Below are positions 8,641 through 49,100 of a DNA stretch of 64,000 nt, in pieces. Every line of letters begins with the position of its first letter. The first letter of the stretch is position 1. The stretch lies in the NCBI GenBank assembly GCA_031310005.1, contig CM062379.1:4650001-4714000 (forward strand), in the 5' to 3' direction. The stretch is from Dactylellina haptotyla. Its lineage: Eukaryota; Ascomycota; Orbiliomycetes; Orbiliales; Orbiliaceae. A model generated the notes under the pieces. That model was not told the origin of the DNA and searched no databases. It saw only the letters and a program-made list of their open reading frames with translations. Position numbers and translations under genes: made by a program.

Positions 8641-8767
8641 TGAGAGGAAGTCGATGATTTCATTAAGAAGCTATCTACATCATTTCTTCTATATAGAGAT
8701 CCTCCGAATGAGCCAAATATCTAATCTACTACATAATCTGATTAAGATTTTCACTAATGTATTATTA
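8641..8767. repeat. left 127-bp terminal repeat of the old element
   Basis: It aligns without gaps to 20331-20457. Its outer (left) part keeps G and C, while its inner (right) part has A or T where the partner has G or C, for example TCTAATCTACTAC against TCTGATCTGCTAC. Confidence 0.8.
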
Positions 8768-11700
8768 CTCTTATTTAAAAACATTATTAAATATATTTAT
8801 TCTAAAACCCCTACCTATATTCATTTTTTAATAAATCTATTTTTATTCTTAATATAATAGTTATTATATTTGATAAGATATAGATAGAAAGCATTTTTTA
8901 ATATAAAATTAGTTTTATAGAATAGGTATAAAAATAAATTTATAAATATATTAATATTAAATATAAAAGTTATTTTAAATATAAAAAATATAATTAATTT
9001 AATTATAATATAAATTTTTTAAAATTTGTTTTTTATAAATAATTTAATTAAAAAATTAATTAGTATAATATTAGTAAATATTTTATAAATAATAATCCTT
9101 TTATTATCTACTTATTGGTTAATAAATTTTTCAATTATTATAAAATATTTAAAACTTATTAATATATTAAAATTAATAATTATGTTATATATGGATTTAT
9201 TATTATAAAAAAAGGCAGATTTCTTATTAAATGCAAGGCCTAAAAATATTAATATATTATAATATATTTAAATTAATTTTTTAATATAATATAATATTAA
9301 TATATATTTAATTTTATAAAATAAGGTAGTAATTTTTAATTATTTAATAAATTTTTATAAAATTAAGTTTCCTCTAATAAAAATAAGGTAATTAAAAGTT
9401 AATAAACTATTAAAATAATTTTTTAAAAATATTAGTATAACTTTTAATAAAAAAATTAAAAAAATTTAATAAATAGTATAAATTAATATCTATAATAATT
9501 AAGATATATTGGTAAAAATTTATTAAAATTATTATATATTATTTCTATAAATTAAAACTATATTAGTATATATATATTAGAATATAAATAATATTAGAAT
9601 AAATATAGTTTAATATATATATTAAAACCAGTTTTCTATTTAAATATTTTTAAAGGATAAAACCAAATTATTATTTATAATATTAAAAGTTTTAAATTAA
9701 TTTGTATTAAATATATATATAAATAAAATTTAAAAAGAAAAATATTTTTAAAATAATCTTTATATAATAAATTTAATTAAATATAATATTATAATTAAAA
9801 TTTTAAATAATAACAATATTTATATAAAAGAAATTTAATCTATTTTTTAATCTTAAATTCTTTTTAAAAGCTTTTAAAAAGATAATTTATTTATTAAAAT
9901 TTATAAAAATAAATTATTTATATAATATATAAAATAAATTTTATTTTTAAATTAAAAATAATAATTTTTAAAATTTTTAAAAATTAAAATTTTAAAATAA
10001 TCATACAATTTTAATATTAAAATCTAATAACTTATTTAAAATTATATAAAACTTTAAATAATCTCTATATTTTATTATCTTTTAACCAAAATAAGGTAGA
10101 AATCTTATATATATATTTATTTATATATTATTATTTAAAAAGTAATAATAAAATCATATTGCCAGATTCTTAATTTATTTTTAATAATAATGGATATAAA
10201 GATTTTAAATATTTAAAATTTAACAATAAAGGTATATAATAATTAGAAATTAATTTTTAATTATTTATCATTATATATTATAAATTTTACTTTATATTTA
10301 ATAATATTACCATTTTTATCTATTTTATAATTAAATATTTATTTAAAGAAAATGATTTTAACTTTAAATAGAATAGAAGAAATAATTTTATATATTTTAT
10401 TAATTTTAATAACATTAAGCTTATTATCTATTACTTTTAAAAATTTATTTTTATAAAATAAAAAAGATATTTATATAATAATTAAATAATATAAATTTTA
10501 AAGTTCTAAAAATAGGTAATATCTATATTATTATAGTTATAATAATAGGTATTATATTTTTAAATTAAACATATTTATAAATTATTTTTGAAATTATAGG
10601 TAGATAAATTAGTAATATTCTTTTTAATATATTTTTAAAAATATTAATAAAAATAATAATTTATTAAAGATGATGTCTTTTTATATAATATTTTATTTAT
10701 AATTATATTAAAAATTTTCTATATATTCTTTAATATAAAATAATTAAAAATATATATTTAATAAATCTAAATTTAAATTTTTATATAATTAATTAAGAAT
10801 ATAAACTTATATATTATAATTTTAAATTTTTAAATTATTAATATATAGTTTTTATTTATATAAAGCTTTGTATGGGGATATTTTAAATTTAAAAAATATA
10901 TTAGGAAATAGTTATAAATATAATTTATAATTAAAATTATATTATTTTAGAATTTGAAAAATAAATTGGAATAAAGTAATATTAAATTGGTCTTATAAAT
11001 AATAATTTATATAATTTTTTAATAATTTATATAATTTTTTGTTTAGAGAATTTATATCAATAGTATATAATTAAATATATATTTAAATAATATTATTATT
11101 TTTAGAATTTTTAGTGGTATTAGAATCTAATTTACTATTATTTATATAAATTTTTTTAATTTATAATTATATTATTTTTAATAAATATTTTTAATAAAAT
11201 AATATATATAAAGCATTAGATTTTTCTTTTAAAAGATATATCCAGAACATATATATATATTAATTTATAATAACCATATAATATTAATTATTATTAATAT
11301 TAAAATCTTAGATATTTGAAAAATTAATAAATATTTGTTTAAGGGCTTAGTAATTTTAATAAAAATAATATATTAAAACTCTCTTTTAATAATTTTAAAT
11401 ATATAAAAATATATATTTAATTTTTCTTTAACATTTAAATTTATAACTATAATAAATAATATATCAATAATATATTAAAATATATATTTAATACAATAAT
11501 ACTATAGAATTTTTAAATTAATATTTATAATAATAAATCTAATAAAGCCATTTAATAATAATTTAATAGAAGAATTTAAAAATTATATATAAATTCTATA
11601 ATATTTAAAATATAAACTATTTTATTTTTAATTAATTTATAAATAATAATCTTCTTTAATTTCTTATTTATTATATAAGCCTTATTAATAAAAAAAATAT

Positions 11701-12548
11701 TAAATCCCTTATAATTTAATTATAATATAAAAAGGAGATTAAGGTTTTATAAAATAAGAATATAGTATACTTTTATTAAAATAATAAAATAAATAAAATT
11801 ATTATAAAAAATAAAAAATTAAATATTATTAATACCTATAATATATATATAGCTATTATTAATTTTAATTACTTTGGATTCTATGATTTAAAAGTTGATC
11901 AGCTTATTTATATTATAAATAAAATAATACAAAACATCAAAATCAATTATCCAATCGGATTAATATATAGATAGTACTAGATTTAAAAATATTTTTTATA
12001 TAAAGAAGCTCAAATTTTTATTAGTAGACATTTTTTTTTTTTTTTTTTTAAGAAGAAGCAAAAATAAGGTTGATAATTATTATAAAATAGAAAAATATAT
12101 TTTAAAAAGAAGTAATCTTATGTAAAAAAAATTTATATTTATATAATAGGTATATATAGCATACCAATTAAAAAAAGATATAATAGTATTAAAAATTAGT
12201 ATATAATATATATATTTTATTTAATCCTATTGAAGGAAAAAAGATATCAATAGTATTTAAAACTAGGATAATAAATAAAAAAAATATAATAATTATAAAA
12301 AAATTTTTAATATTATTTAAAAGTTATTAAATATTAAAAATAATTTTAAAAAAAAATAATTAATATTTACTTAAATTTAACTTTAATATAATTTACTTAG
12401 ATTTTAAATAATTTATTAATATCTTTATAAATAAAAATTTTCTAAATTATAAATTTAATATTATTTTTATATAAAATTTAAATAAAAGATGAATCTAATT
12501 AAAATTCTTTGTGGGATTTATTAGCAAAAAACATATTTATATTATTAA
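8768..12548. other. AT-saturated interior of the old element, left arm
   Basis: Almost pure A/T DNA, with no ORF of 60 codons after about 8,857. Rare GC islets (such as AAAATAAGGTAG) are the only complexity. A T-run of about 20 lies near 12,030-12,050. Nothing functional is visible. Confidence 0.75.
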
Positions 12549-12715
12549 TGTAGAAGCTTCAGCTATAGCAGTATCACTGATCGTATGTAGGTATGAGCCT
12601 GTAAGGTTGATGTTCGATGATCTAGAACTACAACACATCGAGTCCGCTCTGTAGATACAAATACAGAGCGGTACGGGCGAACCCGGCCTGTACGGCCTGA
12701 CACGTAATCCTTACA
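12549..12715 (-). repeat. copia LTR (3' LTR in element orientation)
   Basis: 167 bp, TGTAGAAG...CCTTACA. It is identical to 19072-19238 by direct comparison. A short purine-rich stretch (minus strand GAGCTGGGG) abuts it and fits a polypurine tract. Confidence 0.92.
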
Positions 12716-13359
12716 CCCCAGCTCGTGACAGTGCCGGCGTGGTGTTTGTGCAGTTCTAAAAACGTACGAAACAGTGGTTTTACGGCGCTAACTTCAGAGC
12801 GGCCGAAGGTAACATCAACAATCGGTTCGCTATAACAGTTGCTTCCTTATTTAGAATAGAGGGTTGGAGCTGTGCAGCTCTCGCCGTAGAGCTTACCAAT
12901 TTCCTCTAACTGCTTTACCATAGACGAGCGAGAAAAGCACTAAATATAGTGTAAAAACTCTGCCGTATTGTTGGACCTGTAAACGGTAGTCTCTACCAAT
13001 TGCGCTTCATGCAATTTAAACGGCAGAGAACTGACAACATGTGTATATATAGCTCAAACAGCCAATATACAACAAAACCAACAACATTTCTGTTGCTTTG
13101 GTACGGTAGACTGTAGCCAGAAATAGCAGTTCGTGCCTCTCAGTTCGAAAGTTGCACAAATCTAAGATTAGTGTAGCGATTTCTAGAATCCTGTGGTGGG
13201 GATGGAACGTATACTTAACGGTCGATTCTCCTCGAGGTAGCAGGTTTTGAACGCAACCTCTACCATTCACTAATCTTGCTAAACAGCCTGATTTTGCCTC
13301 ACATACACATCCTACCTTTCTGCCTTTGGTTCAGTACCATTTTCGTTTTCTTTGCAGCC
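12716..13359. other. non-coding segment inside the copia element, upstream of the accessory gene
   Basis: About 640 bp of normal composition without a supported ORF. TGTATATATAGC near 13,040 could be a TATA box for the plus-strand gene starting at 13,360. The assignment is tentative. Confidence 0.35.
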
Positions 13360-14174
13360 ATGTCTACAGGAGATGCCCGTTTTGACGCTGTAGTCAACGA
13401 TCCCAACCGGTACATTTGTGCCATTAGCTGTCAGTATTGCTACGACAGCAACCGCACATGCATAGTGGCGCCCACAACCCGCTCAGGCAAGTGCGCTTCC
13501 TGCGCGCTTGTGAATGCAGGCTGTACCTGGAGTGAGTCAGCTGTTTAGCGTCTACCTACTGGTCTGTACACTAATATATATTTTGCAAGGTCGTAACGTT
13601 AAACCTCCAGGCAGCAGGGGTCCTGGTGTCAACCGTGTGGTTTGTAACCCCCCACAGCTCGTTATTGTGCCTGGGGATCCGCAACACTACCAAACAGTTG
13701 CTCCACAGGCGCATGCCCGCAGCGCCAATACCCGGCTGGTACGGTTCACGGCGTAGTGTTAAACGGACCTCCCCCCCTCTCAAATGACTGTATTGTTGCC
13801 GGTACATTGTGGGGACCAGACGACGGTACCGGTACCGCTATTCCCCAGCTTCCCCACTTGCCCGCCAACCTTGACGTCAGGGCGCTCCAAACACAACTGG
13901 CTGCAGCGCCAATGGGAGCAGGTGGCGCATCATCCGCGCAGATTATGACTGCGATATCTGGAGTACAGGGACCTGCAGGTGCGCCTGCGCCTTACCCAGT
14001 TTGACGGATGTTATGGCGGAGTTAACCTTGTTGCGTACAAGGGCAGATGCGTAAGTTATACAAATTACTATGCATCTTTTCGTATATACCTGCTAACTAA
14101 ATGTACGTATTAGCATGCAGAACTACATGGCAGGGCAGGCTGGTGCCGGCGGTGCGTTCGCCTGGCCACCGTAA
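13360..14174 (+). CDS. antisense accessory gene of the copia element, Zn2Cys6-spaced N-terminus (frame-broken)
   Basis: It lies on the strand opposite gag-pol, between RNase H and the 3' LTR. Exon 1 (13360-13531) encodes 57 residues with Cys24-X2-Cys27-X6-Cys34-X10-Cys45-X2-Cys48-X6-Cys55, the exact spacing of fungal Zn2Cys6 clusters. It lacks the usual basic run between the second and third Cys. A 58-bp intron (13532-13589, branch ACTAAT, TTTGCAAG) and a 63-bp intron (14051-14113, GTAAGT, CTGCTAAC, TATTAG) are canonical on the plus strand. Exon 2 (13590-14050) needs two frame changes (about 13,745 and 13,990) to reach the last exon, which ends QAGAGGAFAWPP. Read strictly, the first frame stops at 13756 (112 aa). 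The middle is Gly/Ala/Pro-rich and a short helix (ELTLLRTRADAM) precedes the end. The function is unknown; nucleic-acid binding is a guess. Confidence 0.5.
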
Positions 14175-14269
14175 TTTTGGTTTGTGTGTTTTTCGCGCTG
14201 GCGCGCATTAATATATTTATTTATATATTATTTGTATTTATTATTATGAATGAAAGATCTTTTGTGCCT

Positions 14270-15915
14270 TCAAGGAAGCAGTCCCATCTTGGAAATATGG
14301 AATTTATGAGGGTCTCTTGGTAGTGCTTTCGTCATTACGTCAGCTACTAAATGCTCAGAGCCACAGTGTTCCAATGTGAAGGTACGTTGTAGCACTTGTT
14401 CACGTATCCAGAAGTATTTAACGTCGTAGTGTTTAGAGCGCTGTTGGGTTCCACCGGTAGTGTTTATAGTGATAGCGGCAGTGTTATCCATATACATAAC
14501 CGTAGGCGGTAGAGAAGGGATATCTTCGGTCCCATCTTCATGAATACCGTTGATAGGAGATTTCTCAACCAAATCCTTCTCTCCAGCGTGGTTAGAGGCA
14601 ATAACTTCCGCTTCAGTGGAAGACTTCGCAATCGTCCTCTGTAGCTTACTGCTCCAGGCTAACGCACTACCTCCCAGTAGGAACACGTAACCAGAAGTTG
14701 ACTTTCGTGCAATATCTTCCGGTCCGTAGGTTTGTGCCCAATCGGCGTCACTGTACGCTTCAAGACTTAGTGGAGCTGTTCTTCCGTGGTGCCATTGCGA
14801 TTATAATGCAGAGCCTGCTTGTACGTGCCCCCCAGATACTGGTATGCCCATATCATTGCTTTCCAGTGTTCTTCCGTGGGCGCACTAGCGTATTGGCCTA
14901 ATTTTGCAACCGTATAGGCAAGATCTGGTCTGCTACCTTGCGCTGCATACATCAGAGACCCTAGCATACTACGATACGTATGTGCATCCTCTGTATTTAA
15001 TTTGGGCCAGCTGTCATCCTTAGAGAGTCGTACCCCTGGGTCCATAGGAACATGCCTGGTCTTTCGATTCAGCATATCGAAGCGTTCAAGAATCCCTTTA
15101 CAATATTGTTCTTGGTCAATTTGTAGAGATCTAGTGGCTCGGTTACGTTGTATCCGTAGTCCCAGGAACTGCTTTACTTCCCCCAGGTCGGTAATTGGGT
15201 ACTTCTCCATAAGAGCTGCTTTCGCCCTCTGAATCATAGAGAGATCTGGTGATGCTATCTTAAAGTCATCGACGTACGTGGCAATTGTTATATTTTCTGA
15301 GATGTAGAGGCAGGTATCGGCGGTGCTTCTCTCCATACGGAATGGGAAGTCTGCGCTCAACAGCGTAGAATTCAATTCTTCATTCCAGAGATGAGGCGCC
15401 TGCTTCAGACCGTACAGGGACTTAAGCAGTAATAGTGCTTCTATCCCCTTTGGTACCTTACAACCTTCAGGCAGCGCAATTACTGCCCTCTCTGACAGCG
15501 GTAGCGTTGCATGTAGAAAGGCAGTTTTGACGTCAAGCTGGTGAACGTGTAGATCTTGAACGGCAGCCACTAATAGCAGCGTCCGTATTGTACGTAAATT
15601 TACAACTGGCGCGTACGTCTCAGTGTAATGAACGCCATATCTCTGCTCATAACCCTTAACAACTAATCTTGCCTTATATAAAATCCCAGAGTCTGTGCGC
15701 TTCCGTGTGAACACCCATCTTGATTTCATAGGCTTGATAGCTTTCGGTACCGCTCTAAGTTCAGTCCAGGTATTGTTCAAGGATAGCGCTTTCAGTTCTC
15801 TTTCTACGGCGGCAGTCCACTGAATATGTTCATTTGAAGACATAGCCTCCTGATAGGATTGTGGCAGATTGAGGTCAATGGCAGCATCCTCTGCAGTTAC
15901 CGGCGCGGCGGGCAA
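14270..15915 (-). pseudogene. copia reverse transcriptase and RNase H region (frameshifted)
   Basis: The reverse transcriptase frame (15915-14767) starts with the copia signature around WTAAVERELKAL and shows RWVFTRK, YKARLVVKGYEQRYG, VHQLDVKTAFL, KSLYGLKQAPHLW and the catalytic YVDD. The RNase H frame (14686-14270) has AWSSKLQRTIAKSSTEAE, YMDNTAA and TKALPRD. Between them the expected SDADW segment is present but in another frame, so at least one frameshift lies near 14,770. All the catalytic motifs I can read are conserved, so the damage is confined to frame breaks. Confidence 0.9.
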
Positions 15916-17315
15916 TTCCTCTTCAGACAGTAGAGTACCTGTTGCCCGGTAGGCAACTGCAGCGCGAAATTTACGTGCAGAGTCGATGACTGCAAGTCTT
16001 TACTACGTCGTAGAGCGCTCCGCTCGTCTACGGGTCTGGCAGCAGCTTGCTCATTTTCTTCCTCTACAGCTTCATCTTGGGTAATTTGAGCAGGCCTCTC
16101 TATAATTATAGAGAAGCTTGGCTGATTTGGTGTACCTTGCGCATTGCCTGCTGGTAGCAAGGAACCAATATAATTCCGGTCTTTGTCATACAGCTGCCTC
16201 ATACGTAGGTTCTGTACCGTTTCAGTATCCTTTGGATCTGGCAGTACAGGAGCTAGAGGTGCCGTGCCCGTATAGGTCTCTTCCAATAGTTCTTATCGGT
16301 AAAGCAGCTATCGAAGTCTTCCCTTGCAGGGTAGAGCTGTCAACGAAAATGGCATCTCTAACGATAGAGACGACCCGCTTAGACAGGTTCCAAACCCGGT
16401 ACTGCTTCATTGTAGCTGTGTAACCTAAGAAGATCCCTTCCACGCTCTGTGCGCACTGAGCAGCTTCTTTCGCTGTTCCTTTGGGATAGTGACGTAGACC
16501 AGGCACCCAAATGGGTGCATCCTGTTATAATCGACAGGCTGTTTGTAAAATAATTCATACGGAGACGTAGTGGCAACCTGCCCGTTCGTCTGTGTATACA
16601 GTAACCTGTTGCTTATTGCACAGGCTGCTGACATCGCTTCTGGCCAGAAGACCTCTGGTAACCCCGCTTCAATCAACATGGTTGTGGCCAGCTCACGAAG
16701 TATCCTTATTGCCCTCTCAGCAGTACCATTTTGTTCATGTGCGTATGGGGCGGATGTCTCCATTTCGATCCCATATTTTTCACAGAACTCCTGTATGTCG
16801 AGGCGCAGGAACTCCTTGGCATTGTCCATCCGTACCCCCATAACTCTACTACCAGGACCCAGCTTGCCCTCCATCATTGTAACGAATTGTATGAAGCGCA
16901 CACGGTACTCTGAGCGTTCGCTGAAGAACCGTACCCATCTCATACGGGTAGCTTCGTCTACAATTATAAGCGCATACTTGGCCTCTGCGTGCAGTTTATT
17001 CGTAGGGTCGGCATGTCGTTTATGTAATGAAGCGGTTTTGAATGGACCCACTACATCTATATGTATACGCTCCAGCGGGCGTAGCTTCTTGGTGGAAGCT
17101 GGTCCATAATTGCGATGTATTGTACTCTTGCCTAATGCGCATGGCTCACACAGAGGGTTGTGCTTTCCCTGAGGGGGCACGGGAACCCCAGCTTGCTTCA
17201 TAACTCTTTTCACTGTCTTCCAGCCTGCATGGCCCAGCTTCCTGTGCCAACGTAGCAAGTCGGTGATTTCAGTGGGCAGTTCATTTACAGCTGTATTACT
17301 TCGTGCGGCCATCAC
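15897..17315 (-). pseudogene. copia integrase region and linker (frameshifted)
   Basis: The integrase frame 17315-16425 carries the HHCC zinc site (HRKLGH ... LCEPCALGK) and DDE core motifs (IDVVGPF, MDNAKEF, EQNGTAERAIR), then HPFGCLVYV. The downstream GIFLGYTATMKQYRVWN signature is in a different frame (16506-16222), and the acidic linker in yet another (16286-15897). There are therefore breaks near 16,440, 16,280 and 15,900. Confidence 0.88.
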
Positions 17316-17326
17316 CGTGGACTTAT

Positions 17327-18985
17327 TTACGAATGTATCTTGGTCCTCGTTCGCCTCTGGCGGTACAATACAGCTGTTAGCATGTAGAGACCTACAGCAG
17401 GATCGAATATGGGCTCTGAGATCAGGAAATCATCCTTTTCGATAGCGGTCCACTTCGGTTTGAAGGTTACTGAAATACCCCTCTCGGTCAGTCTCCTGAC
17501 AGAGCAGAGATTCAGTGCCATACCAGGCGCATAGAGTACGTCGTGTACGACTAGATAGCAAGTGGGGGTCTCGATTTTGATTTGGCCATACCCGTAGGCT
17601 AGCACAATCGAATCATCCCCCAACTTGATTTATTTCTGTCGAATGAGAAGTAGCTACCGGGATGAATAGCGCTATATCCTTAGAGATCCAGTCGCTTGCC
17701 CCGGAGTCTATATACCATTCACTGTAAACGGTAGGGGAATTCGTTCTTTTAGTGATATTGGTTTTGTATGCATAAGTTACGTCACGGTGTAGAGGGACTG
17801 CAGTGTAAGCGGTAACAGTGGTCTTTTTCTTCCTATTGGGATTAAGATGGGGATAAAGGTCCCAGCAGCGATCTTCTGTATGTCCGGTCTTACCGCAGTT
17901 ACCGCACAGGAGGTGACTTCCTGGTTTCTCATGTTTATGAGGCGGTACAGGGTTACTGGTGCCGGCGCTTGGTGCAGCCTCGCTGAAGCGTGTCCTCTTG
18001 CCACTATTTTGCGTATTTTGCGCATTTTGCGCGCCATTACTGTCTCTGTCGTAGTCCACCGTGCGCTTCTGCTTGCGTTTATTTCTACCTTTGAACGTGG
18101 CAGCTGCCGCCAGCTGCAGCTGGAGTCTGTGTATCTTTTGAGTTGATGTCTTTTCTCTTGGTTTGGCTGTGACCCTATGGGAGTCAATTGCGTTCTTCTC
18201 TATAAGAAGATTCCTCAACATGAAATCCTGGAAGTTCTTAATGTTCCATTCGGCGTCTTTGGGCAATACGGTAGCTGTAAAGAACCGTGTAAACGCTATA
18301 ATTGGTTCGTTTCCAGAGGCATGGAGGGACCCCATAGCAGCATTGAGAAGCACAGTTTCATCAAAGGAACCTTCGGTAATAGCACGCCGTTCCTTCTGTA
18401 TGCCTGCAGACTCTTCAAACAGCTTCTGTACGGCTGTGTAGGGACTGTTGTTCTTCAGGTTGACAACCAGGAGAACAACCGAGTCTCCAATACCGTAATA
18501 GACGCGACTGACTCCGTCGGGCGGAATCGAGTCTTGATGGTTTCCATCATTTCCGCGGGGGTTGTTAAGCCTGTAAGGGCAGAGCGTATGTCGTCGTGCA
18601 CTGACTGTATATGCCATTCGGTGGTAGATTTGGCGATGTCGTATTTTTGCCTTGGAGGCAGGGCAGCAAGATCTGCAGCCTCTGCAGACAGGGTGGCAGC
18701 TACTGCCGTTGCTGCAGTTGGCGGTAACCTCCAACGCGGTCGGAGGTTCTACCGAGATTCCTTCACGAAATCGTGAAGAACGTAGCCTGCCTTCAACTGT
18801 ACGCGTAGATAGAGCGTGAGCTGCTCGAGCCAGCTTTGGTAATTACTACCATTCGCCAAGCCTATGCTCTGTTGGGAAGGTTGCTGCCATTCTGCCTGTG
18901 TAGATGTAGGGAACCGGATTCGGGTAATAGTATGTAATGTAATATACGTAGCGGTAAAAGAACCCTTGTAGATCAGGGATTCCAC
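17327..18985 (-). pseudogene. copia gag and protease region (frameshifted)
   Basis: A short first frame (18985-18749) contains NYQSWLEQLTLYLR, typical of copia gag. The main frame (18734-17613) holds a zinc knuckle CGNCGKTGHTEDRC (C-X2-C-X4-H-X4-C) and the aspartic protease motif YIDSGASDW. Its continuation (LGDDSIVLAYGYG ... VLYAPGMALNLCSVRRL) is one base out of frame at a run of five G near 17,620, and another shift lies near 17,330. Confidence 0.88.
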
Positions 18986-19071
18986 AACCGTTAGAGGCGT
19001 AGACTTCGAGATTCAGTAAATACCAATAGGTAGAGGCCTTCCAGAGATATCAGGAAGTGGTGCTGATAACG

Positions 19072-19238
19072 TGTAGAAGCTTCAGCTATAGCAGTATCAC
19101 TGATCGTATGTAGGTATGAGCCTGTAAGGTTGATGTTCGATGATCTAGAACTACAACACATCGAGTCCGCTCTGTAGATACAAATACAGAGCGGTACGGG
19201 CGAACCCGGCCTGTACGGCCTGACACGTAATCCTTACA
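19072..19238 (-). repeat. copia LTR (5' LTR in element orientation)
   Basis: Second copy of the 167-bp repeat. It is expected to hold the element's promoter for minus-strand transcription. Confidence 0.92.
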
Positions 19239-20330
19239 ATTAAGAGTAGCAAATACTAAAGTTAATTTTATTTGTATATTTAATAATAATATTTATTTGT
19301 TTCTTTTAACACCATAATAGTTTTTTATCCAATAACCATAGATTTAATAATTATCATATTATAATTGTATAATAAGATTTTTATATTTTTTATTAAATAT
19401 ATTATTATTAGAGATATAATACTTTTAATATATATAAGTATTTGATTAATTATTTTAATTATATTATCCTTAATTAAGAGTAGGGGATTAAACTTATATT
19501 AAATTTTTTTACTTAAATATATAAAAAGAAATATTATTTTAAATAATTAAATAATAGGGTATAGTAAAGTACATTCTAATCTCAACTATTTTTAATATAA
19601 AAATAAATATAAAAAAGTTAATAATTAAATTAATATTAAAATAAGATTAGATAGTAAATTAGAAAGCTATTAATAATTTATTAATAATATAGCTAATAAG
19701 TAATTTATTAAAAATAAAAATAATAAGATTAGTAAAATAAATTTAAATAATTTTAAATTTTATAATATATTTATTTATTCTTATATTTTTATCATAATAA
19801 ATTTTACCAAATTTAAAAATAATTACATATATAGTAATAATATTGCTAGATTTATAATTTTTTATAATTTATTCCATACTTTAATACTAGTATTTAATTT
19901 ATTCTTAAAAGAAAGAATATAATATATTATTAAATTATTGATAATAAAAAAATAGCTATAAAAGCCTATACTTAATCATTATTTTATTAAATAAAACAAA
20001 TATTCTAATTAATGGTATTTTCTTTTTAATTCTTAATAATAATATTAGAACCATTAATAAATATTTAAAAATTCTTACTATAAAGAACAGTTTTCATTTT
20101 GCCAAACTATACTATATAATTATCCAATTTTATTAATAAAGTGATTCTTTTAATATCAATTATAATTATAATAAAGAAAAAATTAACCATTTTAAATAAA
20201 ATAAAGATAAATTTATTAAAAAAACTTATAGATTAATAGGGTAAATAAAAAAAAATATAAAAAATTAATAATTTAAAATATTTAAAATAATATTATATTA
20301 ATATTTAAAAATAGAAGAGATCATAATTTA
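19239..20330. other. AT-saturated interior of the old element, right arm
   Basis: Same composition as the left arm. It begins with the second ATTAA target copy (19,239-19,243). A purine-rich AGAAGAGA precedes the right terminal repeat and could be a polypurine-tract remnant, but this is weak. Confidence 0.65.
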
Positions 20331-20457
20331 TAAAAGGAAATTGATGATTTTATTAAGAAGCTATCTACATCATTTCTTTTATATAGAGATCTTCCGAATG
20401 AGTTAGATATCTGATCTGCTACATGATCTGATTAAGGTTTTCACTAATGTGTTGTCA
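20331..20457. repeat. right 127-bp terminal repeat of the old element
   Basis: Partner of 8641-8767. Here the inner (left) part is AT-converted (TAAAAGGAAATTG against TGAGAGGAAGTCG) and the outer part keeps G and C up to the terminal TGTTGTCA. Confidence 0.8.
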
Positions 20458-20961
20458 ATTGTTAGCAGCGGATCAGGCTGCTTCTCACGACAGCCACTTG
20501 GGCACGGCCTGCAGGCGAAGTTGCAAACGTCTCAAGATTGAATATGCACCCATCCGAGCAGCTAGAAAGGCTTGGAGCAATCTGCCAAAAAGGGGAGATA
20601 TATATACGTTAAATGATGATTGTCTCAAACTATCCCTTTGAAGGCAAACGAGAGCTGAACATGGAGATAACAAAATTTCCCAAAGAATATCGGAATGAAG
20701 CTGGATAGAAATCTAGAGTGGTGAGCTTCGTCCACACCAAGATAACCTACAAGCTTTTGGGGCTCAGAATCTGCATATGGTGGAAAGACACTAAAATATA
20801 AGTCCTGAGATTGATAAACCCCTTGCCCCCGGTTCAGATTGGCATACTGTGAACTTGAAAACACGCCATCGTCGAATTCCTGTTGATTCTAGTACAAATT
20901 CTAGGATATTCATCTTAATAGCACTCTGGACCTGGCTGGATTCCCACCTTTTGACGTCAGA
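20458..20961. other. right flank of the AT block, no gene seen
   Basis: Composition returns to normal at once after 20,457. ORFs of 60-80 codons on both strands oppose each other and lack domains. It probably contains the promoter of the gene at 20,962. Confidence 0.4.
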
Positions 20962-44126: not shown

Positions 44127-44666
44127 ATGGCTCCAGCTGTCGGTATCGATTTGGGAACCACCTACTCCTGCGTGGGTGTCTTCAGAGATGACAGAATCGA
44201 AATCATTGCCAACGACCAGGGTAACAGAACCACACCCTCATTCGTAAGTACATTCCTCCCCTCGATGGTGGGGTAATCACCACCCCCCCACCATCGTGAT
44301 CCATCCTGCAATAGGAAAGAAAAAACACAGATGCTAACAGTTTACTTCTCGCATAACAGGTTGCCTTCACTGATACGGAACGTTTGATCGGTGACTCTGC
44401 AAAGAACCAGGTCGCCATGAACCCTCACAACACCGTCTTCGACGCCAAGCGATTAATCGGTAGGAAATTCTCTGACGCAGAGGTCCAATCCGATATGAAG
44501 CATTTCCCCTTCAAGATCATCGACAAGGGTGGCAAGCCAATCATCCAAGTCGAGTTCAAAGGCGAGGAGAAGGTCTTCACCCCAGAAGAAATCTCCTCCA
44601 TGGTCTTGACCAAGATGCGTGAAACCGCTGAATCTTACCTCGGTGGCACCGTCAACAACGCCGTCA

Positions 44667-44715
<49 letters not shown>

Positions 44716-45532
44716 CGCCGGTCTCATCGCCGGTCTCAACGTCCTCCGTATCATCAACGAGCCCACCGCGGCCGCCATTGCCTACGGTTTGGACAAGAAG
44801 GCCGAGGGTGAGCGAAACGTCCTCATCTTCGATCTCGGTGGTGGTACCTTCGATGTCTCCCTCTTGACCATCGAGGAAGGTATCTTCGAAGTCAAGGCCA
44901 CCGCCGGTGACACTCACTTGGGTGGTGAGGACTTTGACAACCGTCTCGTCAACCACTTCGTCCAGGAATTCAAGAGGAAGCACAAGAAGGACCTCACCTC
45001 CAACGCTCGTGCTCTCCGACGTCTCCGAACCGCCTGCGAGCGTGCCAAGAGAACCCTCTCTTCGTCCGCCCAGACCTCCATCGAAATCGACTCTCTCTAC
45101 GAGGGTATCGATTTCTACACCTCCATCACCCGTGCCCGTTTCGAGGAACTTTGCCAGGACCTCTTCCGTTCCACCATGGACCCCGTCGAGCGTGTCCTGA
45201 GGGATTCCAAGATTGACAAGTCCTCCGTCCACGAAATCGTCTTGGTCGGTGGCTCCACCCGTATCCCCAAGATCCAGAAGTTGGTATCCGACTTCTTCAA
45301 CGGCAAGGAGCCAAACAAGTCCATCAACCCTGATGAGGCCGTCGCTTACGGAGCCGCTGTCCAAGCTGCCATTCTCTCCGGAGACACCTCCTCCAAGACC
45401 CAGGAGATCCTTCTTCTCGACGTCGCTCCCCTCTCCATCGGTATCGAGACCGCCGGTGGTGTCATGACCGCCCTCATCAAGCGTAACAGCACCATCCCAA
45501 CCAAGAAGTCCGAGATCTTCTCCACCTTCTCC

Positions 45533-45563
<31 letters not shown>

Positions 45564-46168
45564 ACGAGGGTGAGCGTGCTCGCACCAAGGACAACAACTT
45601 GCTCGGAAAGTTCGAGCTCACCGGTATCCCACCCGCCCCACGTGGTGTCCCACAAATCGAAGTCACCTTCGATGTCGACGCCAACGGTATCATCAACGTC
45701 TCCGCCGTTGAGAAGGGTACCGGTAAGACAAACAAGATTGTCATCACCAATGACAAGGGCCGTCTTTCCAAGGAAGAAATCGAGCGCATGTTGGCTGAAG
45801 CCGAGAAGTACAAGGCCGAGGATGAAGCCGAAGCCGGCCGTATCCAAGCCAAGAACCAACTTGAGAGCTACGCTTACTCCCTCCGAAACACCATCAGCGA
45901 TAACAGCTCCAGCGGTAAGCTCGAAGCTGCTGACAAGGAAACCCTCGACAAGGCCGTCTCCGAAGTTGTCGAGTGGCTCGATAGCAACACCACTGCCACC
46001 AAGGAGGAGTTCGAAGCCAAGCAGAAGGAACTCGAGGCCGTCGCCAACCCAATCATGATGAAGTTCTACCAGGCTGCTGGTGGTGCTCCAGGTGGTGGTG
46101 CTCCAGGCGGCATGCCAACTGGCGGTCCAGGTGGCGACGATGGCCCAACTGTCGAGGAAGTCGACTAA
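44127..46168 (+). CDS. cytosolic Hsp70 chaperone (Ssa type)
   Basis: Exons 44127-44243 and 44360-46168 around a 116-bp phase-0 intron give 641 aa. The ATPase domain starts with [16 protein letters not shown] and includes [14 protein letters not shown] and [15 protein letters not shown]. The linker and substrate domain include [20 protein letters not shown], and the lid ends in GGAPGGG/GGMP repeats and the EEVD terminus that recruits TPR co-chaperones, which identifies a cytosolic/nuclear form. It folds nascent and stress-denatured proteins. The large minus-strand ORF opposite it is a codon-bias shadow. Heat-shock elements upstream predict HSF1 control. Confidence 0.98.
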
Positions 46169-49100
46169 ACAGAACGAAAAAAATCTCAAAAGTTTTTTTT
46201 TGGTTTTCTGCGACTTTTTTTTTCCTCTGCGACTCCCTATATTTTTTTCGAACTAATCAAAATGATAAAATTATAATCGCATTTGTACATCCTTTCCTTT
46301 GTTCTTGAACCGTCGTCTTTTCATTTCTTTTTCTTTATGATCATGTTCTCTTTCACGATAAAAGGAGTTTATATACGGGGGTTTCTGTGTTCCTTTTCTC
46401 ATTTTCCATCCTTTTTTTTTTCCATTGAAGAACTCTTGGGAGAAAATTTGTCAAAACATTCGTCATGTTAATCCTGCTCCCTCATAACTTCTCATCATTC
46501 TTCCGACAAAGAGCCTTTTACCTCCTACATCCTTACAAATAATAATGTTGTCTCTTCAAAGGCTTTGTAGGTTAGTCTATGACGAATAGAATCTATTTCC
46601 AAGTGGAAACCCAACTTGTCCGTAAAATCCATTTTCTAAGTGACTTTCTGAAAAATTCTGGATCGATTGTTTGACATCAGAGGTTTTCAAATTCTAAAGA
46701 CTAGCATTATGAACTTCCTATATTTCAACTTGGTCTCGTCGCAAGATGCTGATTTCAATTTGTTCAAAATACTTATATAAGGCATCCGCATTCTTTGATA
46801 TATCCACTGAACTGGAACCCGCCTACCGACTAGAGCCGCAATTGAAAGAGGTCTCCTAGATACCATAAAAATTTACAAGGCGAGATATTCGAGATAAAAC
46901 TACGCGGGGAAGTGGGGCTGTAGTCGTCCCAGCTTTTGTTGATCACGCGGGCACAGATGCTAGCACGCTGAGCTTGTGATTCTTTACTCTTTATATCAGA
47001 GATGAAGACAGATATATATTTCCTGTAGCTCCTTGAAACGCCTGTTCGCCGTTTATGAGGTATGCTGTCCATGCAATGTTTATTCTATTGCGCACTTTTT
47101 CAATATGATTGTGAAAGGCGTATGAATAACTTTTCCGGGGCTCACGAGGAGTAGATAGACGTGATACTGATAAATCCACAAATCGCAAGAGGAAGAAACG
47201 AATGAGTCATATAGTCAGTTGGTGATCGGCCAGGAGTAAATGTTTGGCGCGAGAGATATCTTGAGCTTCAGAGCTGGTGAGCTCGGGGTGCTCGGAGAGA
47301 TATGGCAGGGGCGTAAGATCGCGTCTATATACTTGGTCCGATATGCGAGCAGCCACAGATCGTGGATACACAAGGGGTGGATCCGGATCTGCTACTGGGC
47401 AAGAGACTAATTGTCGCGGATCAACTGCTCGTGCCTTACATGTGGATATTTCGCATTCTGCATGCTAAACGCAGATCAATTTACGAGGATACTGAGCGGC
47501 ACAGGATGCTGCAGGTACTGCAGTACTGGCCAAGTTTACAAGCACATGTTAAAAATCTTTGATAGACAAAGATAGATAGATACTTTACTGATGCTGCTAT
47601 AACGCGAGCAAGAATGCACCGCATTCCTCTCCTCTAAGTGTAGGGCACGGAGGATCGATCTCGAAGCCCTTGAAGGTCAGACTAGTAGTTCATCCGTCTC
47701 GCTTCATACGTATATGCATTCAATGAAAACAAGGCAGTCAGGAGAAGATAGGGCGTTAGGATATTAATACTAAAGGAAGATTTTCTAGAAACCTTGAGAG
47801 TAGGAATTACTTTTCCTTTGGTGTTTCAATGAGGAACTGCGTAGGCTGGCAGAACGTCGAGGCGCGCTTGCAGCCTAGGGGCCGTCTTTAAAAACTCCGC
47901 TAGGTTTCTACTTTTGAACTTTCTCCCAGTGTAAGCCTCTTGAGGGTATTGAGTCATCATGATTGGCTAGTCTTATGTTAAATAGCTGCGGCGGTGAGGA
48001 CGCCGTTTGTGGGAAACGCTGAGCCGCGTCGCCTTATTCTGGCTGGTTAAATTTCCCAGATCACGGGATTTCTGTTTGAGCACCGACATATCGAGACTCT
48101 GGGAATATATATAAGACGGCCCCTGTTCCCAGCTCCTGTGCTGACACCTGTCCTTTCCCTTTTTTCATCTTCTATCGAACCGTCTTTGTATTGATCGTCA
48201 TCGTCAGTTGTAAGTCAACTTTGAGTCTCGCGATCCCGACGTTAGATTGTGATTTTATGCGAGTGAGAACTGTGTTGTGAGTTGTGTTGCAGCGTTTGTC
48301 GTGTTTGTCGTTGCTGTGTTGGACGGCGCCGGCACCTTGCTCAAGCTGCTGGCTGCTGCGGTTGTTGAGGTCAAAGAAGCTCAAACGTCACCGCTTCAAT
48401 TTTCATGTTGCGACGCTTCCAACAAGCCCCATCCTCATCTCTCAAACGCCATCACATCCGCTCAGCCTTCCCACCAGCTCTGCGCCAGACTCAAAACCCT
48501 GCACCTGCATTCGAGTTCCGCTTCTTCGCTCTCGATCCCGTCGATACGCCATCCTTCTTGCTCCTTCGCGAAGCATCCAGCGTCCGTTCCTGGCGCATCG
48601 CATTGAAGCAAGTCCTAGTTTGTATACTGGCCTACCCAACTACTCCGGTGTGTTCCTTGCGCGGATAACGATCGCCTGCTATTGGCAATGGAGTGCTGAC
48701 ATGTTCTCGTTGACCAGTAAAAAGCGCAACCGTTGCGGCTCGATTCACCGAACGAATCAACCGTTGGAACCCCGCTAAATTTTTATATATCTTTGCCGGT
48801 CTTCCTTGAGCCTTTTCGACGGCAACTCCTCACTTGGTTTTTCCATTCCGGCTCTGCGATTCCCAACTTATCCGACCAGTCGATTGCCCTCAGGTACCTC
48901 CAGGTCACACCACTGACGGTCCCGGTACCACACCATACTGACAAGCGCCGAGGAAACATCCAGCTTCGCGAGAAAGTTCCGACAGTGATAGCCTTATACT
49001 CTATCCTCCAGACTCGTAAACTCAGCACCCGGTGACTTCTATCAAAAAACCTCTGGCGCTCTTCCATCGCTTTCACATTCAGCCTAGGTATGATCCATAA

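Follow-up and report, generated by a model that had tools for sequence, protein, structure and literature searches.

A candidate antisense accessory gene with zinc-cluster-like cysteine spacing in a copia retrotransposon family of Dactylellina haptotyla

The window analyzed here, a 64,000-nucleotide stretch of the genome of the fungus Dactylellina haptotyla, contains a copia LTR retrotransposon on the minus strand (12549-19238) and, within it, a gene of spliced type on the plus strand (13360-14174), opposite to gag-pol and between the end of RNase H and the 3′ LTR. At least 18 copies of the element carry this gene at the same place, on the same strand and with the same sequence, and in one of them its reading frame is intact. 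We lean toward reading it as a family-wide antisense accessory gene of copia that encodes a 231-residue, zinc-binding, trans-acting regulator. Antisense and additional ORFs have been published for other LTR elements, so the kind is already known; the combination of a copia setting, two introns and zinc-cluster-like spacing was not found in the literature searched.

Results

Structure of the copia element

The element is bounded by two identical 167-nt LTRs identified in a direct-repeat search (TG...CA; 5′ LTR, 19072-19238; 3′ LTR, 12549-12715; both minus strand) and is flanked on both sides by the target site duplication ATTAA (12544-12548 and 19239-19243). Pfam places gag-pre-integrase and integrase-core (rve) domains at 16425-17315 and a reverse transcriptase at 14767-15915 (RVT_2, E 2.1e-54) on the minus strand, so that integrase precedes reverse transcriptase in sense order; this order, the TG...CA LTRs and the 5-bp duplication are those of Ty1/copia elements. 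Pfam lists no family for two further minus-strand regions, which we take from copia motifs to be the RNase H part at the C-terminal end of pol (14270-14686) and a gag region with a CCHC knuckle (17613-18734). The preliminary description had proposed a copia element with an opposite-strand gene between RNase H and the 3′ LTR, and the LTRs, the duplication and the Pfam order all agree with this.

A matching 5-bp duplication also flanks six of nine other copies, and is absent in L035 (C9:2380608-2387293), L037 (C9:20641-27361) and L039 (C5:58059-64788). The flanks of these three copies are mismatched within each copy and matched in a ring among the three (AAAAT/TTAAT, AGCAG/AAAAT and TTAAT/AGCAG, respectively), as if contig-end arms had been exchanged by ectopic recombination or misassembly.

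AT-rich DNA, down to 7% GC, lies on both sides of the window copy (8700-12548 and 19239-20700); 10 of the window's 128 500-bp bins have a GC content below 0.25, including the AT-rich DNA around the element. Five of the six young copies (the window copy and L031-L035) have such flanks (GC 0.07-0.19, under 20%), and L033 alone lies in DNA of normal GC content. We rejected the idea that the AT-rich flanks are themselves decayed copies of the element, as their scores in a RIP-tolerant alignment lie at the null level.

Anatomy of the antisense gene

From sequence and copy alignment, the gene comprises three exons on the plus strand. Exon 1 (13360-13531) begins with ATG and spans 57 codons plus one base; it is followed by predicted intron 1 (13532-13589; 58 nt, GTGAGT...ACTAAT...AAG), exon 2 (13590-14050), predicted intron 2 (14051-14113; 63 nt, GTAAGT...GCTAAC...TAG) and exon 3 (14114-14174), which includes the stop codon. 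Both introns had been proposed in the preliminary description, and splice and branch-site sequences are present at each, although the AAG end of intron 1 is a less usual form. The antisense gene and gag-pol are convergent (tail-to-tail), separated by an AT-rich spacer of 95 bp (14175-14269). On the other side of the gene lies a 644-bp leader (12716-13359, plus strand), a putative promoter and 5′ UTR in which a pattern scan finds a TATA-like run, TATATATA, at 13044-13051. A scan for bacterial-type promoters gave counts close to shuffle level and was set aside.

The plus-strand, spliced-type layout of the earlier claim holds up, but a frameshift in exon 2 makes the full gene unreadable in the window copy. 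Among the ten better-preserved copies, the frame is open throughout only in L032 (G000:C2), where the spliced frame runs through both introns for 231 amino acids to a stop. The predicted protein has a cysteine-rich N terminus. A linker follows in which Pro, Gly and Ala make up 41% of the residues, and the short segment at the C terminus seems helical on visual inspection.

No spliced ORF of 231 or more residues arose in 2000 dinucleotide shuffles of the L032 gene (maximum 222, median 62). With the same spliced-ORF finder, the longest ORF on the reverse strand of the gene is 48 residues, and none of 19 overlapping stretches taken antisense to gag-pol in the window exceeds 143. GC content by codon position is 0.62/0.58/0.54 in the exons versus 0.34 in the introns. 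In codon log-odds the spliced frame is the best of six with either table used, at −0.049 versus −0.098 for the next frame with a host table (13 host stretches, two of them overlapping on opposite strands), and by a tiny margin, −0.047 versus −0.056 for a reverse frame, with a gag-pol table; its score is thus slightly negative in both. Elsewhere in the window, at 44356-46252, two overlapping stretches of about 600 codons each are open on opposite strands.

A cysteine motif spaced like a zinc cluster

Six of the seven cysteines of exon 1 form the motif C24-x2-C27-x6-C34-x10-C45-x2-C48-x6-C55 (residues 24-55; 13429-13524, plus strand). This is the exact C-X2-C-X6-C-X10-C-X2-C-X6-C read in the preliminary description. 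When the residues of exon 1 were shuffled 200,000 times, the general Zn2Cys6 spacing appeared in 31 shuffles and the exact spacing in one; because the motif was picked post hoc, these frequencies are guides rather than probabilities.

The resemblance to the Zn2Cys6 family (Gal4-type, PF00172) lies in this spacing and in the end of the motif, which reads C-x-W in the antisense protein and C-x-Y/W in the family. In Zn2Cys6 proteins a basic segment separates the second and third cysteines; the antisense protein has YDSNRT there, with a single arginine, and it lacks the proline that precedes the fourth cysteine in the family consensus. A Pfam search of the protein returned no family, its sole listed matches (E 0.26 and 0.43) falling below the cut-off, and Zn_clus was not listed at E values up to 10. 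Likewise, the exon-1 locus is absent from the 112 Zn_clus matches found in the genome, 98 of them over the cut-off. The protein is therefore spaced like a Zn2Cys6 cluster, as had been described along with the missing basic segment, while membership of the Zn2Cys6 family is not supported by these sequence comparisons. The N-terminal cysteine-rich module probably binds zinc.

DUF3716 (PF12511), a fungal cysteine domain, has a similar layout of paired C-x2-C motifs. Pfam does not list this domain for the antisense protein, and we set the identity aside: DUF3716 matched neither the protein nor the genome, its absence from the genome being weak evidence because the controls also matched nowhere there. 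A structure model of exon 1 made with no alignment was too poor for use (pLDDT 42.9). A scan of the viral contigs of IMG/VR with exon 1 gave 22 stretches that fit the peptide pattern, none of which was confirmed as a relative.

The gene across copies of the element

We searched the 39.8-Mb D. haptotyla genome (11 contigs) for further copies. The DNA search scores the best candidates only, so copy counts are lower bounds; it gave at least 41 matches, of which at least 10 span the antisense gene. These ten comprise six young copies (98-100% identity), one at 87% with many indels, and another three at 71-77% whose differences are nearly all C-to-T and G-to-A. A RIP-tolerant alignment, judged against a null of reversed sequences, located the gene in another six copies, whose GC content is 5-9% (L024/L040, L025/L041, L055, L056, L057 and L058). 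Of five further sites, chosen for an anticipated 3′ end or an LTR match, two (L060 and L063) carry the gene, and at the other three this alignment found neither the gene nor an LTR. Four LTR loci (L019, L022, L023 and L027) show no match to the antisense gene or to the 5′ end of the element and may be solo LTRs. Eleven LTR matches of the DNA search carry no locus, and seven were left out of the copy count.

Presence in other copies had been set as a test of the gene, and the searches yield the total of at least 18 given above (10 by DNA search, then 6 and 2 by RIP-tolerant alignment). Among the sites examined, every one with a recognized RNase H end and 3′ LTR also carries the antisense gene. 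Its occurrence in most copies of the family, on the antisense strand and between pol and the 3′ LTR, is what is expected of an aORF. Moreover, intron sequence is retained in all 16 copies that we aligned base by base. The preliminary description had argued that introns on the strand opposite to gag-pol survive retrotransposition; their retention is expected if minus-strand gag-pol RNA is the template, and is borne out by these copies. Overall, these comparisons support the view that an antisense accessory gene of spliced type belongs to the element.

Decay and assembly quality of the copies

Two RIP-marked copies, L037 and L038, have the same exon and intron lengths as the intact gene and no indel within it, but contain RIP stops; since they keep the intact lengths, the intact frame probably preceded the disrupted ones. 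In L039, the third of the RIP-marked copies, a single base is inserted within the gene, and older relics carry small indels there. Compared with L032, copies L037-L039 show zero transversions within exons and introns, and the six older relics show transversions in 28 of 4079 CDS cells (6, 8 and 14 at the three codon positions); L055, which is poorly aligned in its 3′ part, accounts for 12 of the 28. This near-absence of transversions indicates that the degraded copies are essentially the L032 sequence plus RIP. Because the differences are RIP-type transitions, the relic protein identities of 26% to 63% in the genome searches with exons 1 and 2 reflect mainly RIP and not deep divergence.

The window copy and L031-L036 differ by scattered small indels and hardly any substitutions; over about 1 kb, the six young copies have 8 substitution columns versus 44 gap columns. 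The gag-pol of the young copies is broken at different places. This pattern suggests that the scattered indels of the young copies are likely uncorrected assembly errors in repeats, so the frameshifts of the window copy and the indels of the others can be read safely as biology only with raw reads.

Origin of the gene

Searching the genome with exon 1 gave at least 13 matches, and all those listed lie in copies of the element. Exon 2 gave at least 21: element copies, two relics that were confirmed as elements, and one weak match at C5:1608606. Apart from the latter, no host paralogue was found among the listed matches of either exon. Capture of the gene from this host, one of the origins raised in the preliminary description, is not supported by the listed exon-1 and exon-2 matches or by the Zn_clus matches of the genome, which do not include the exon-1 locus.

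Discussion

The convergent genes, the TATA-like leader, the host-type introns and the cysteine-rich N terminus followed by a linker together fit a separately expressed accessory protein. We propose that a separate promoter within the 644-bp leader would drive the antisense gene, and that removal of the two introns would yield the 231-residue protein, in which the Pro/Gly/Ala-rich linker joins the N-terminal cysteine-rich module to the short segment at the C terminus. This protein would act in trans, as a regulator, and its target would be the DNA, chromatin or transcript of the element itself. Regulation of the element appears the most likely role by analogy with what has been suggested for antisense ORFs in plant elements. 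Target choice, which is raised by the AT-rich flanks, is a weaker possibility, as survival bias would explain these flanks equally well.

The plant elements with antisense ORFs considered here, such as Grande, are gypsy elements. The preliminary description is fair in holding that copia elements usually carry gag-pol and nothing more, yet other LTR elements, among them the fungal element Boty, are known to have antisense accessory ORFs in just this position, and the available text of two studies describes antisense ORFs at the equivalent position (PMC7264820; PMC11963269). In the portions available, such genes are described mostly for gypsy elements, with function unknown (PMC7264820; PMC11963269). 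Boty resembles our element in being a fungal LTR element whose antisense gene sits between pol and the 3′ LTR (PMC7264820; PMC8365987), but it is a gypsy element rather than copia; the excerpted text on this Botrytis gene, brtn, places it in BcGypsy1 and mentions further additional ORFs (PMC8365987). The plant elements share the antisense orientation and the position between pol and the 3′ LTR, and a nuclear protein and an own promoter are reported for the Grande antisense gene in the accessible part of the same source (PMC7264820). Retand, a plant gypsy element according to the text available, has antisense TRP28 ORFs in 97% of clusters (PMC11963269); its ORF has a Transposase 28 domain, which was not found in our antisense protein. 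Almost 4000 additional ORFs have been identified in plant copia and gypsy elements, as summarized in the excerpt available (PMC11728184). Our literature search, which covered titles and abstract openings, returned no fungal copia element with an antisense gene.

Several other explanations deserve consideration. It is unlikely, though less so than the other alternatives, that the gene is a passenger, captured once from a host or another element and carried without function: its introns are of host type, and leader and gene form a self-contained unit, but among the listed matches neither exon 1 nor exon 2 has a paralogue outside elements (the weak exon-2 match aside), and the length of the frame has been retained in two RIP-marked copies. 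Somewhat more doubtful is a role for the antisense transcript rather than a protein, in which convergent transcription would generate dsRNA or block gag-pol and so limit or silence the element. The convergent layout with its 95-bp spacer would suit such a mechanism, and a regulatory role of antisense RNA is among the topics of PMC7264820; an intact 231-residue frame across two introns and the cysteine pattern would, however, be left unexplained.

That the ORF, the introns and the cysteine spacing are all coincidental strikes us as very unlikely. The cysteine pattern was chosen after the fact, the window copy is itself frameshifted and the codon score is modest, but shuffling never reproduced an ORF of this length and seldom even the general Zn2Cys6 spacing, and a single frame is restored by two introns with branch sites. 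We give least credence to a nested mobile element, or its remnant, inserted into the ancestor of this copia family: a site downstream of pol would presumably tolerate insertion, but a search covering repeats of at least 60 nt found none near the gene apart from the LTRs, and no separate genomic copies appear among the listed matches.

Returning to the accessory regulator that we favor, a bolder version, which we regard as improbable, is that a spliced, antisense, zinc-cluster-like trans-regulator evolved within the element and controls it or directs its insertion to AT-rich islands. Such a fungal trans-regulator would parallel, in its logic, the antisense regulators of retroviruses, for example HBZ. 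A copia family with a spliced antisense gene, present in one intact copy and in RIP-marked copies of a single compact fungal genome, would offer a tractable test system in which to ask whether antisense proteins regulate, target or restrain their element.
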